From contig JAICQO010000056.1 of NCBI GenBank assembly GCA_025937835.1, positions 1 through 44,598 on the forward strand: 44,598 bases of DNA, read 5' to 3'. Under the pieces are notes generated by a model. It ran no database searches and was not told the DNA's origin. It was given only the letters and a program-made list of their open reading frames with translations. This DNA comes from Polyangiaceae bacterium. GTDB lineage: Bacteria; Myxococcota_A; Polyangia; Polyangiales; Polyangiaceae. Both the position numbers and the translations under genes were made by a program. Within the stretch, counting starts at the first letter, position 1. Each line of letters starts with the position of its first letter. Of this stretch, positions 13,432 through 27,625 are shown one piece after another.

Positions 13432-14405
13432 AACGTATCACCCGGTCCCGCGTCGAAGCCGGTGCTCTCGAGGTGATAGGTGAAGCCGATCACCAGCGCG
13501 GTCGCGCCGATGTCGCCGAGGGTGCGGCGCGCGCCGATCTCGGCTTCGAACTCGCGAGAGACGTAGGCGAAGCCGAGAGCGCCGGCGTGGGACTCGAGGC
13601 CCTGGTCGTAGCGGTAGCCCGCGCGGACGGAATAGGCCCCGCCGAACAGGGTCTCGATCGCGAGCATGCCGCGCAGCTTGGTGTCGTCGAAGGTCGTGAA
13701 GTCCGCAACCAGATCGGCCTCGATCCCGAACGAGGTGACGCCGTAGCCGATGCCACCCCCGATCGTGGTCGGCATGAAGCCGTGGTCGGGCGCGTTCAGG
13801 TTCGTACCCGTGATGGCCAGAGACAGCTCAGGAATCGGTTTGACCGTCGCACCGGCGTCGAACGACCACTGGCGGACGATCTGTTCGTCGTTGGTTCCCG
13901 AGCTCGCGAGGCTCTGGCCGAGCGGGCCTTGCCCGTTCTGCTGCAGCCACAGGTAACGGCCCCCCAAACCCACGAAAAGCGACTGGGAAAACGGGTAGGC
14001 CATCGCGAACCGCAGATCGGTCCACTGGCGATCGACGCCGTCGGAGTCCTGCGTGTTGTAGGTGACGCCAGCGGCGCCCGCGAGCTCGGAGGACGACAGG
14101 AAGGAGTCGCTGCCGGCCACGCCGTAGCTCTGGCGCTTCGCTTCGGGCCAGATCTGTGCCAACACCCCGAGGTGATAGACTTCACCGACCGCGATGTTGG
14201 CGGGGTTCACGAACAGGGCGCCGATCGAGTTCGACGTCGCCCGTTGAGCGCCCGCGGTCGCAGCGTGACGCGCGGTCTCGATCTCCTCGTAGTTGTAGCC
14301 AACGGTCGGATCGAGGCTGCTCGGATCGGCGCGCGCGTGCGTCGCCAGCAACGCCAACGCACACATTGACGTACTCGCAAGGTACGCGGCGCGCACGCTG
14401 TGCAT
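13428..14405 (-). CDS. Outer-membrane beta-barrel protein
   Basis: About 325 residues from the chosen ATG at 14405, which gives a signal peptide (HSVRAAYLASTSMCALALL, then THARA before DPSS). The reading frame is open to 14522 but the extra 39 residues are Arg/Ser-rich and non-signal-like; GTG 14417 is an alternative. The mature protein has many beta strands with aromatic girdle residues, an early NPANIAVG motif seen in PorV/FadL-like barrels, and ends in GFTYHLESTGFDAGPGDTF. It ends tail to tail with the 12319 gene, sharing CTAG. Confidence 0.75.
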   Translation of the reverse strand: MHSVRAAYLASTSMCALALLATHARADPSSLDPTVGYNYEEIETARHAATAGAQRATSNSIGALFVNPANIAVGEVYHLGVLAQIWPEAKRQSYGVAGSDSFLSSSELAGAAGVTYNTQDSDGVDRQWTDLRFAMAYPFSQSLFVGLGGRYLWLQQNGQGPLGQSLASSGTNDEQIVRQWSFDAGATVKPIPELSLAITGTNLNAPDHGFMPTTIGGGIGYGVTSFGIEADLVADFTTFDDTKLRGMLAIETLFGGAYSVRAGYRYDQGLESHAGALGFAYVSREFEAEIGARRTLGDIGATALVIGFTYHLESTGFDAGPGDTF

Positions 14406-14522
14406 GAAACGTTTCACCCAGCGAGCGCTAGACCGGCTACGCGCGCGCGGACAACTATTCGACGAACTCGAGTGGCCCGTCGTCCGGCCGTTGCCCAGCC
14501 AACGACGCCGGAGCGGCGGCAA

Positions 14523-14576
14523 TGCAACCGGCCGTCCGTGCGTTGCATAGAGTCACCGTGGATGCGCGTTGACTCT
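14523..14576. repeat. Two successive inverted repeats upstream of the barrel gene
   Basis: TGCAAC (14523-14528) pairs with GTTGCA (14542-14547), and AGAGTCA (14549-14555) pairs with TGACTCT (14570-14576). They lie 118-171 bases upstream of the minus-strand barrel start, a distance compatible with operator sites or a leader structure. No family assignment is possible by eye. Confidence 0.4.
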
Positions 14577-15040
14577 TGACGCCACAAACCGCGGAAGTTG
14601 CCGTCGATGAAAAGCAGCGCGCTCGAGCGTCGAATGGAATGTGCTTCGACTCTGCGAAGTTACTGAGCGCGCACGAAAGCCATGCGCTGCAAAACGAAGC
14701 GCGCGCAAATTCGGGTCGCGACGATTCAGCGTCATTTGCGCGGCGGCTGCGTGAGCGCGATCTTTTGATTGAACTTCGGTTTGGGGCGGTGCTAGCTGCC
14801 CCTTCACTGTCGGCGGTCGCGCTCCTCGGGTTCGACCATCCGGCCTGCGGATTCAAGGAACAGGGCTAGATGAGCAGGTCTTCTCCCCAGCCGTAACCAG
14901 GGTCCCAAGCTCCTTCCTGGAGCGTGGAATCCAATACCCGTGAGCATGGCCGAGGTGGTCGGCCAGCTCGCCGAAACCCGACGAAATAGTGAGCCCGAGC
15001 CAGGCACCCGGCCTTTGGGCTGACCATTCGGACACGCAAC

Positions 15041-15060
15041 TGTCCACAGGTTTGTGGACA
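15041..15060. promoter_or_regulatory. Inverted pair of DnaA boxes before dnaA
   Basis: TGTCCACA (15041-15048) and TGTGGACA (15053-15060) form a perfect inverted repeat around GGTT. The right arm with 15061 reads TTGTCCACA on the minus strand, one mismatch from the DnaA box TTATCCACA. The left arm with 15040 reads CTGTCCACA. The pair ends 28 bases before the dnaA start, so DnaA autoregulation or origin function is likely. Confidence 0.7.
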
Positions 15061-15088
15061 ACGTGGGGGCGCTTTCTGTGAGATCGCC

Positions 15089-16549
15089 GTGATCAGTCAA
15101 ACCAGCCAGTACATCCCGCAAGGTCCTTCCGTGAGCGCGCTTAACGAGCGGATCTGGAACGAAGCAGTCGAGGAAACGCGCCGCCGTTCTCCGGCATCCT
15201 TCGAACAATGGTTCTCGAGCGTTCAGTTCGACGAGCTGGACGACGGCGTGCTCACGCTCACTGCCCGTGACGAGTGGGTGCGCGACTGGGTCGTCGCGCA
15301 TTTCCTGCCCGACCTCCTCGCCAATATCGAGCAGAAGCTCGCGGGGGGTGAGACGGGCGAGGCCGAAGCGCTGCGCGTCGAGTGGCGGATTTCGGGCAAC
15401 GTCGAGCGGCCCGTGTGCGAGCGCCGCCAGAGCGTCCGCCCGAAGACGCTCGAGCCGACGCCCCAATCTCGCCGTTCGGAGCGGCCCCTGCCCGGCGGGT
15501 ATTCACGCGCCGCGCTGGCCGCCGCGCTGAACCCGAAGCACACGTTCTCGAACTTCGTGGTCGGGCCGTCGAACGCGCTGGCTCACGCGGCCGCGCTGTC
15601 CTCGGCGGGCGGCAGCCCGGGTTACAACCCGCTCTTCATCGCCGGCGGCACGGGCCTCGGCAAGACGCACCTGATGCATGCGATCGCGCACAAGGTGCTG
15701 GAAGAGCGGCCCGACGCGCGCATCGTCTACGTGTCCGCGGAGCGCTTCACCAACGAGTTCATCGAGGCGCTGCAGCACCACCGCATGGACGAGTTCCGTT
15801 CGCGCTACCGCGCGGACTGCGACCTGTTGTTGGTCGACGACATCCAGTTCTTGGCGGGTCGCGAACAGACGCAGGAGGAGTTCTTCCACACCTTCAACGC
15901 GCTCCACGATGCGGATCGGCCGATCGTGGTCACGAGCGACAAGTATCCCCAGCAGCTGCAGCGCATGCCGGAGCGGCTGGTGTCGCGCTTCACCTCGGGG
16001 CTGGTCGCGGACATCCAGGTGCCGCAGCTCGAGACGCGCGTCGCGATCGTGAAGAAAAAGGCGCAGCTCGAGGGCATCGAGCTGCTCGACCAGGTCGCGG
16101 TTTTGCTCGCGCAGAACGTGCAGAGCAACATCCGGGAGCTCGAGGGCGCGCTGATCCGACTGGCGGCGAAGTCGTCGCTCACCGGGCGCCCGATCGACGA
16201 AGAGTTCGCCCAGGGCGAGCTGTTGCTGGTCGCGCCGCGGCGGGCCAACCTGGTCAGCGTCGAGGACATCCAGCGCGCGGTCTGCCACCACTTCCAGCTC
16301 TCGAACGCGCACCTCATCAGCAAGGATCGCCACAAGAGCGTGGCGTTCGCGCGGCAGGTGGCGATGTACCTGTGCCGGCAGCGGCTCAAGTGCAGCTTCC
16401 CCGAGCTCGGTCGCGCTTTCGGTAACCGCGATCACACCACGGTGATGAGCGCGGTGCGGCGTGTCGAAGAGCTGCGCGCGCGGGACCCTCAGGTCAACGC
16501 GCACCTCGAAGCGATCGAGCAGCGGCTGGCGTCGTCTTCGGAGAGCTAG
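15089..16549 (+). CDS. dnaA: Chromosomal replication initiator DnaA
   Basis: ATP-dependent initiator that binds DnaA boxes and opens the origin. The 486 residues contain domain I (about 18-100, IWNEAVEETRRRSPASFEQW), a short linker, and the AAA+ domain with Walker A GGTGLGKTH (186-194) and Walker B LLLVDDIQFL (246-255). The DNA-binding domain IV carries the signature GRAFGNRDHTTVMSAV (441-456). Start: GTG at 15089; GTG at 15131 would remove 14 poorly conserved residues and is possible. It stands alone: no dnaN, recF or rpmH is visible nearby. Two inverted DnaA boxes sit just upstream. Confidence 0.97.
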   Translation: MISQTSQYIPQGPSVSALNERIWNEAVEETRRRSPASFEQWFSSVQFDELDDGVLTLTARDEWVRDWVVAHFLPDLLANIEQKLAGGETGEAEALRVEWRISGNVERPVCERRQSVRPKTLEPTPQSRRSERPLPGGYSRAALAAALNPKHTFSNFVVGPSNALAHAAALSSAGGSPGYNPLFIAGGTGLGKTHLMHAIAHKVLEERPDARIVYVSAERFTNEFIEALQHHRMDEFRSRYRADCDLLLVDDIQFLAGREQTQEEFFHTFNALHDADRPIVVTSDKYPQQLQRMPERLVSRFTSGLVADIQVPQLETRVAIVKKKAQLEGIELLDQVAVLLAQNVQSNIRELEGALIRLAAKSSLTGRPIDEEFAQGELLLVAPRRANLVSVEDIQRAVCHHFQLSNAHLISKDRHKSVAFARQVAMYLCRQRLKCSFPELGRAFGNRDHTTVMSAVRRVEELRARDPQVNAHLEAIEQRLASSSES

Positions 16550-26293: not shown

Positions 26294-26611
26294 ATGGTAG
26301 ACCCCAACAAGCGCCTCGAAACCCTGCTCAAGATGACCGCCAGCCCGAGCGCCGACTCGTTCGCCTGGTACGCGCTCGCGCTCGAGTACCGCAAGGCCGG
26401 GCGCCTCGAGGAGTCGCTGTCGACCTTCGACCGCCTCGCCGAGCGCGACCCGAGCTACCTGCCGATGTACCTGATGGCCGGGCAGACCGCGATCGAAGCC
26501 TCGCAGCGCGACGCCGCGAAGAGCTGGCTCGAGCGCGGCATCACCCTGGCGGAAGCCAAAGGCGACATGAAGGCCCTCGGAGAGCTGCAATCGGAGTTGG
26601 CTGGGCTCTAA
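26294..26611 (+). CDS. Small TPR-repeat protein
   Basis: 105 residues forming about two and a half tetratricopeptide repeats: FAWYALALEYRKAGRLEESL, LAERDPSYLPMYLMAGQTAI and AAKSWLERGITLAEAKGDMK. No signal peptide or other domain, so a cytosolic protein-interaction adaptor is expected. It begins 14 bases after the helicase stop and is probably co-transcribed with it, although a functional link is not established. Downstream lies a structured non-coding gap. Confidence 0.8.
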   Translation: MVDPNKRLETLLKMTASPSADSFAWYALALEYRKAGRLEESLSTFDRLAERDPSYLPMYLMAGQTAIEASQRDAAKSWLERGITLAEAKGDMKALGELQSELAGL

Positions 26612-26656
26612 GATCGTGAATGGGCGGGCGCGGAATGCCCCTGGTCGCAGACCGAC

Positions 26657-26682
26657 GGTGCAGTAAGGATCCTGACTGCACC
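26657..26682. repeat. Palindrome A of a duplicated element
   Basis: GGTGCAGT and ACTGCACC flank the self-complementary AGGATCCT. The 26-base palindrome is perfect apart from one mismatched pair (26665/26674). Its core CAGTAAGGATCCTGACTG (26661-26678) is repeated 75 bases downstream with two changes, pointing to a duplicated binding site or RNA hairpin. Confidence 0.75.
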
Positions 26683-26724
26683 GCGGCGACTCGTAAACCC
26701 AGGATATTGCTGACTATTTCAAAA

Positions 26725-26733
26725 TTATCCACA
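26725..26733 (+). promoter_or_regulatory. Consensus DnaA box
   Basis: TTATCCACA matches the DnaA box consensus exactly. It ends the AT-rich patch and directly abuts palindrome B. One box alone can occur by chance, but both the match and its surroundings are atypical for this GC-rich window. Confidence 0.5.
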
Positions 26734-26755
26734 GCCAGTCAGGATCGTGACTGGC
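26734..26755. repeat. Palindrome B of a duplicated element
   Basis: GCCAGTCA and TGACTGGC are perfect 8-base arms around GGATCG. The core CAGTCAGGATCGTGACTG (26736-26753) matches palindrome A at 16 of 18 positions. The shared core and conserved symmetry suggest that both serve the same factor or fold alike. Confidence 0.75.
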
Positions 26756-26845
26756 GGGGGGCGCGGAGAAGGGGTGCTCCCGAGGGGGAGGGGAAGATTT
26801 TTTGGGGGCGCTCGTGGGCGTTGCCGATGACGCTCGCCCGACTGC

Positions 26846-27625
26846 TCAGTCAGTGAGCGAGGGGAGGCGTCCGGTCGCGTGGAGGGCGAAGAGGTCCATG
26901 CTCCAGGCGACGGCGCAGTGGACGAGCACGCCGCCGTAGATCGAGCCGGTGCGGAGCGAGATGGTGCCGAGCGCCACGCCGGCGAGAACAGAGCCCAGGC
27001 ACTCGGCGAGCGGCTTGCCGAAGTGGATCATCGCGTACGGCACGATCATCACGAACAGCGATAGCGAGCCGATGTAGCGCGCAAGCGAGAAAATCAAGAA
27101 GCCGCGGAAGAAGAACTCGAGCATCAGGAATTGGAAGGCGTATGCGGCCTCCCAGAGCAGGAGTGCCGTCACGGAGTCCCCTGCGCCGGCGTACTTGGGG
27201 TAGGTGCGCAGGAAGGACTCGGTGGTCGACGCGAGGTAGGCCATCGGCAACACGGCGGCGACCATCCCGAGGTAAAGCAGCCATACCTTCGGCTCGCGCA
27301 CGAAGCGCAGCCCGAAATCGCGGAGCCTCTGCTTCAGCACGAAGTGGATGCAGAGCGCGGGCAGCAAGCCGTAGTTCACGAGCTTGAACGCAGCCCAGTA
27401 GAGGTGCGGATGTAGATCCGGATACGGCAGGTGGCTCGTGGCATCGACCAGCCAGCGAGCCTTCACGAACCAGTGCGTTTGCCCGAAGTAGCGCGGCAAG
27501 ATCAGCGCGAGCGCGGCCGTCACCAAGATCGCAGCGGCTTTGGCGCTCGGGAGCGACTCGGTGCGGTACTGCTCGTCAATCGCCCGGAGCTGCGCGAGGA
27601 GCCAGCGAATCAATCGGTTGTTCAA
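26846..27625 (-). CDS. CPBP (CAAX protease-like) intramembrane protease family protein
   Basis: 259 residues with about seven membrane helices. Family motifs are recognisable: motif 1 reads MLEFFFRGFL (E170, R174), motif 2 PYAMIHFGKP (H201), motif 3 VLVHCAVAWSMD (H236, D244). The usual motif 1 is EExxxR; here the first glutamate position is leucine (L169), so activity is uncertain. Related bacterial proteins cleave or sort membrane-associated substrates. Start is TTG at 27625, inside the end of the HTTM gene (50-base overlap); TTG 27613 is an alternative. Last gene of the four-gene overlapping membrane operon. Confidence 0.8.
   Translation of the reverse strand: MNNRLIRWLLAQLRAIDEQYRTESLPSAKAAAILVTAALALILPRYFGQTHWFVKARWLVDATSHLPYPDLHPHLYWAAFKLVNYGLLPALCIHFVLKQRLRDFGLRFVREPKVWLLYLGMVAAVLPMAYLASTTESFLRTYPKYAGAGDSVTALLLWEAAYAFQFLMLEFFFRGFLIFSLARYIGSLSLFVMIVPYAMIHFGKPLAECLGSVLAGVALGTISLRTGSIYGGVLVHCAVAWSMDLFALHATGRLPSLTD

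Follow-up and report, generated by a model that had tools for sequence, protein, structure and literature searches.

The two palindromes in the gap at 26612–26845 belong to a dispersed family whose copies, intact or nearly so, number at least 33 and occupy 25 loci spread over 20 contigs of the same genome; two decayed copies can be added. We interpret this family as REP-like (REP, repetitive extragenic palindromes), restricted to one species and an orphan, with a probability of roughly 0.6; the element behaves as REP-type extragenic palindromes do. The terms "REP-like" and "orphan" are preferred to REP membership because the tests for a GTAG or CGTC tag and for a Y1 transposase gave negative results. 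The family bears on the question of how palindromes of this type can be maintained in the absence of a recognisable transposase. Since the set is small and its cores are kept while the flanks decay, a few more genomes of the species could decide between function and copying, and the doublet described below offers a direct test case for whether a repeat has been recruited to bind DnaA.

The window, that is, the whole analysed stretch of 44,598 nucleotides, contains the doublet in a gap between convergent genes encoding a small TPR protein (plus strand) and a CPBP/Rce1-like protease (minus strand). Coordinates and alignment agree with the sequence-only reading of this locus, which had described a gap between convergent genes and, in it, paired palindromes 75 bases apart (start to start) with 16 of 18 core positions identical. 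With up to three mismatches allowed, the motif is confined to these two places in the window, giving four matches when both strands are counted; the expected number is 0.17, and four matches were reached in 0 of 100 shuffles. The AT-rich stretch noticed between the palindromes proved to be the AT peak of the 44.6-kb window (58% AT in the 60-base window from 26691; 60-base windows, step 10). The adjacency of the DnaA box to palindrome B holds for its extended arms (GCCAGTC...GACTGGC), which the box adjoins, the 18-bp core being two bases away. Neither promoter-like nor terminator-like sites were found in 26560–26900, and no Rfam match was obtained in 26500–26950 up to an E-value of 5. The features of the locus are listed in Table 1.

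Table 1. Features of the palindrome doublet (positions in the window).
Feature	Position	Strand	Basis or second copy
Extended palindrome A, CGGTG-core-CACCG, family member	26656..26683	.	inverted-repeat search, fold, family search
18-bp core A (CAGTAAGGATCCTGACTG), centre GGATCC, A opposite G at core position 5	26661..26678	+	
AT-rich doublet spacer, diverged between the two doublet copies except for the DnaA box	26684..26733	.	
Consensus DnaA box TTATCCACA, also in the second doublet (contig C73)	26725..26733	+	
Extended palindrome B, GC-core-GC, family member	26734..26755	.	
18-bp core B (CAGTCAGGATCGTGACTG), centre GGATCG	26736..26753	+	
Whole doublet	26645..26774	+	second copy G000:C73:36707-36835, minus strand, 83% identical (BLAST)

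The family was revealed by the genome search for the 18-base core that had been proposed from the window alone, performed on the assembly of the own genome (G000; 6.92 Mb, 227 contigs, 95.8% complete). The query CAGTNAGGATCNTGACTG with up to two mismatches produced 27 forward and 31 reverse matches versus 0 and 0 for the backward control, and a freer pattern produced 28 and 28 versus 3 and 3, one palindrome being able to score on both strands in these counts. The total of 33 sites combines the two pattern searches, a covariance-model search and inspection of the retrieved stretches; beyond these stretches, near-intact members with more than two core mismatches may be missed. The covariance model added one family member, on contig C5, and, applied to stretches of 60 other contigs (819 kb in all), gave no match with an E-value under 2. 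The decayed copies are located at C207:27497 and C206:7824. Seven of the 25 loci carry two or three copies, and by eye several of the multi-copy loci other than the doublets resemble tandem duplications of a local stretch. A single motif of the DNA-uptake type was rejected, since half sites outside the palindromes occur close to expectation in 431 kb. Two palindromes with similar arms and another centre (CAGTCAYTGGGCTCACTG) were also noticed in this genome, 124 bases apart (C162:28213 and 28337).

Alignment, flank, fold and tag counts refer to 32 of the 33 sites. The most common centres are GGATCC (11 sites), GAATTC (7), GGATCG (6) and CGATCG (4), followed by CGATCC (2), GGATCT (1) and GGAACG (1). 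At the second position from the dyad the 32 aligned sites carry C or T, identical on the two sides, so that GGATCC and GAATTC are symmetric variants. The outer letters of the arms read ACTG in 63 of 64 halves. The core, including the apical stem, is nearly invariant in sequence; in 17 of the 32 sites one arm has A instead of C at core position 5, which places A opposite G in the hairpin. Family information declines to background by about ±28 to 34, inverted symmetry extends to about ±28, and AT content peaks in the flanks near positions 14–15, 20–21 and 24–26.

The suggested folding check showed that the family folds more strongly than shuffled sequences (mean z −2.2 for 32 sites). Four pairs just below the core, at the stem base, co-vary with a score reached by 0 of 500 shuffles, and the number of double-changed cells there is 19 versus 10.8 in shuffles (1 of 500); structures slid by 2 or 3 columns have as many such cells (21 and 20, respectively), but their scores are lower. 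Across 36 pairs covariation is weak, with a score matched by 30 of 500 shuffles. The two sides of single copies match each other better than those of different copies at positions 10–13 (p 0.005), not beyond. On the basis of the stem-base covariation and this within-copy matching, a predicted hairpin of roughly 10–11 pairs is supported, with weaker dyad symmetry farther out. The earlier proposal of paired protein sites or a structured nucleic acid is therefore upheld in part: the invariant core and the co-varying stem base agree with it, but the element is a genome-wide repeat.

Retention of the core can be compared with decay of the flanks. Core scores are bimodal: in a 594-kb scan, which covered 30 of the 33 sites, these 30 scored 24–33 bits and the next best match 11, while the flank scores of the same 30 sites ranged from 30 down to −16 bits. 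A flank-only scan yielded one convincing core-lost case among the best 25, judged by eye; because the searches lean on the core, core-lost copies are harder to detect. Free of that bias is the comparison of the two doublets (contigs C11 and C73), in which 35 of 36 core positions are identical, the sole difference being a gap placed by the aligner. The DnaA box is identical at 9 of 9 positions, the other spacer at 29 of 48 and the outer positions at 33 of 38. The core is better kept than the whole spacer (38/57; Fisher p 0.0003) and than all the rest (p 0.002). Flank strength on the two sides is correlated over copies (Pearson 0.45, p 0.009; Spearman 0.31, p 0.08), and distant copies share flanks, with 16 pairs identical at no fewer than 28 of 50 positions versus 1.1 in column shuffles. 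Both observations fit uneven decay from one ancestor.

Such a pattern could also be produced if the copies were binding sites of a sequence-specific nucleoid or segregation protein, with selection acting on the 18-bp dyad core and the AT-peaked flanks aiding bending; the copies would then act in the manner of chromosomal sites such as matS, NBS and parS. The persistence of the core in 33 copies, some with flanks decayed to background, the contrast between core and spacer in the doublets, and the symmetric variants among the centres all favour this possibility. So does the flank symmetry, which past position 13 is unexplained by pairing; symmetric flanks reaching about ±28 without a better side-to-side match past 13 suit a dyad protein site and count against the REP-like interpretation. 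However, the absence of the family from seven congeners and its control-level occurrence in 182 genomes (see below) would be unusual for a chromosome-organising system, the local groups and the doublet are repeat-like behaviour, and the stem-base covariation speaks for a hairpin. We therefore regard the protein-site explanation as rather unlikely.

Among the gene contexts of the copies, convergent gaps are over-represented. In 31 of 33 copies the middle lies outside predicted genes, and by locus, according to a codon-usage gene caller, nine are in convergent, nine in co-directional and four in divergent gaps, one is unclassified and two touch predicted genes. The gap test included 22 of the 25 loci, leaving aside C148 (no left neighbour called) and C5 and C82 (touching predicted genes). 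In 60 independent stretches used as background, convergent gaps account for 9.2% of gaps longer than 60 bases and 10.8% of their length, against which 9 of 22 is an excess with p 0.00008 by gap number and 0.0003 by gap length; against all junctions (17.8% convergent) the excess is weaker (p 0.01). Dropping C202, whose gap is below the 60-base background limit, leaves 8 of 21 (p 0.001). Some copies lie at the very ends of genes: at C202 the predicted left gene is terminated by the TAA within CAGTAA, and at C5 a predicted gene end directly adjoins the core. Five small site-bearing contigs carry ordinary housekeeping genes, as judged by eye.

The convergent bias and the strong folding could likewise be accounted for if the elements served as bidirectional transcription terminators, or as hairpins that stabilise RNA, where convergent genes end, and at C206 the core is 19 and 25 bases from two predicted gene ends. 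This explanation appears improbable, given that the window gap has no terminator-like site, the family profile contains no U tract, four loci occupy divergent gaps, and the upper stem is nearly invariant, so that more than its shape is kept. For the REP-like interpretation, the same bias would reflect tolerance of repeats mainly between gene ends, where they are least harmful.

The gene dnaA is present in the same window (15089–16549), upstream of the doublet and some 10 kb away. In the part of the genome examined for the box, 1.43 of 6.92 Mb, two occurrences of TTATCCACA were counted against 0.30 expected from trinucleotides, and both are in doublets; within one mismatch, seven DnaA boxes were counted in 431 kb. 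No cluster of boxes was found near the doublets, each having a single box nearby (up to one mismatch). Exact boxes are present at 2 of the 25 family loci, and since both doublets descend from a single ancestor, retention of the box is one event kept twice. It is suggestive with respect to the doublet alone; the family as a whole is not characterised by it.

These data bear on the idea that the doublet is a DnaA-binding or replication element, serving in titration or dnaA-proximal control, with the palindromes as boundary or structure. The proximity of dnaA, the rarity of the exact box and its full retention against 29 of 48 for the remaining spacer argue for it; against it are the single box without a cluster, the occurrence at only two loci of common ancestry, the post hoc choice of the 9/9 comparison, the coverage of the box count (1.43 of 6.92 Mb), and the presence of separate, differently spelled boxes (TTGTCCACA/CTGTCCACA) in the gap upstream of dnaA. 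We consider this explanation quite doubtful. The replication idea of the sequence-only reading thus fails as a property of the family, and for the doublet, where the box was kept and occurs nowhere else in the 1.43 Mb, a role in replication is possible. Also unlikely, though somewhat less so, is a lineage-specific chromosomal address system, in which an 18-bp dyad that spread in a REP-like manner would be kept by selection for a putative host protein and the doublet version would couple to DnaA near dnaA.

The upstream gap itself (722 bases, 14367–15088) contains two facing DnaA-like boxes, CTGTCCACA at 15040–15048 and TTGTCCACA on the minus strand at 15053–15061, and may represent an origin or a control region of dnaA; in 1.43 Mb, TTGTCCACA was found five times versus 1.9 expected.

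The core, with up to one mismatch, was found neither in 58 other relatives nor in seven congener assemblies. Among 182 other members of the order, a second pattern matched in six genomes, at most once per strand, and the backward control in seven; as these stray matches do not exceed the control, the family is restricted to its own species among the genomes searched. The covariance model also gave a single match (E between 0.009 and 0.82) in each of five genomes out of 38 others; judging from the letters, these matches were taken as chance. A scan of 84,980 GTDB species genomes, from which the own genome was possibly left out, returned 52 stretches with one place apiece. Eight of these 52 single core matches are in Pelagibacteraceae contigs (L095, L096, L097, L102, L137, L140, L141 and L142) and perhaps represent one conserved coding stretch. 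Viral spread was rejected, there being just four single matches in viral contigs. The four core spellings had no occurrence in the literature searched, and a search for REP in Myxococc found nothing relevant, as judged by titles; a Sorangium genome paper (PMC3696898) reportedly uses the words "palindromic repeat".

In the seven congeners, no copy of the core was found in about 500 bases following the orthologous TPR gene, nor did the short loci around this gene show the CPBP gene, so that the gap as such does not seem to be conserved, as far as these sequences indicate. A core missing from relatives with the same flanking genes, together with lack of expression or binding, had been named as evidence against a role for the element. 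The core is indeed missing from the seven congeners, but the gene pair was never seen together there, and its absence therefore shows species restriction and not lack of function. Other sequences were noticed downstream of the orthologous TPR gene. In G006 (L191) a tandem array with a unit of about 21 bases (AGCGGTCGCCTAGCTCTGCTC) follows it directly, and in G004 (L189) it is followed by a perfect 15-pair hairpin (AGAACGCCGATCCGT-CGA-ACGGATCGGCGTTCT) of unrelated sequence, perhaps an ordinary terminator.

The inverted symmetry to about ±28 and the doublet with its inner spacer might suggest MITEs derived from an element with a DDE transposase, in which two terminal repeats abut to form the palindrome. 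However, target-site duplications are not in excess (mean 3.8 versus a null of 4.2 for 25 of the 32 aligned copies), with C54 alone having an 8-base match; half ends alone are not above expectation, with the qualification that repeats may be missing from a 227-contig assembly; and no transposase was seen by eye among the predicted proteins of five small site-bearing contigs, two of them partly covered. Such an origin is highly improbable.

According to the REP-like interpretation, short extragenic palindromes would fold as single-strand hairpins, recognised by both sequence and shape, and would have spread through the lineage as small non-autonomous repeats, forming singles, doublets and local groups. 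Spreading could have been driven by a transposase acting on single strands, since lost or not assembled. The window locus is one of two related doublets with an AT-rich spacer and a DnaA box. The search for a Y1 (RAYT-type) transposase (PF01797, E 0.001) found none in the 95.8% complete own genome, while 5 of 14 control genomes were positive. In the 20 bases preceding the core on either strand, one of the 32 copies has GTAG and three have CGTC, versus 1–2 and 6–8 in control stretches, respectively, and the commonest tetramer at one offset beside the core occurs in 9 of 32 copies. No empty site in a close strain is at hand, which also counts against this interpretation. Two properties that define REPs are nevertheless present: a palindrome of 20–40 bp is repeated in the extragenic DNA of one genome, and a hairpin is kept by compensatory change, although at the stem base (four pairs) only.

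Among known systems, datA/DARS-type sites are clusters of DnaA boxes in intergenic regions away from dnaA; the box of the doublet is likewise intergenic and away from dnaA, but it is single, unclustered and part of a repeat. MITEs resemble the family in being dispersed, non-coding inverted repeats, but the family shows no excess of target duplications, and no parent ends were seen. BIMEs are mosaics of palindromes with spacers, as is the doublet, although the family has just two related doublets. Compared with REPs and REPINs, the family lacks the GTAG/CGTC tag, no Y1 transposase was found, and its apical stem and centre are nearly fixed; it numbers 33 copies found, against 91–323 in the REPIN populations of one published report (PMC8049555). 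At the same time, it shares with them short dispersed palindromes, the hairpin, doublets and groups, and the bias toward convergent gaps and 3' ends: according to published work, REPs favour convergent and unidirectional gaps near 3' ends and supply stop codons, and the CGTC families include ones that, like the family described here, are without a dedicated transposase (PMC3733652).
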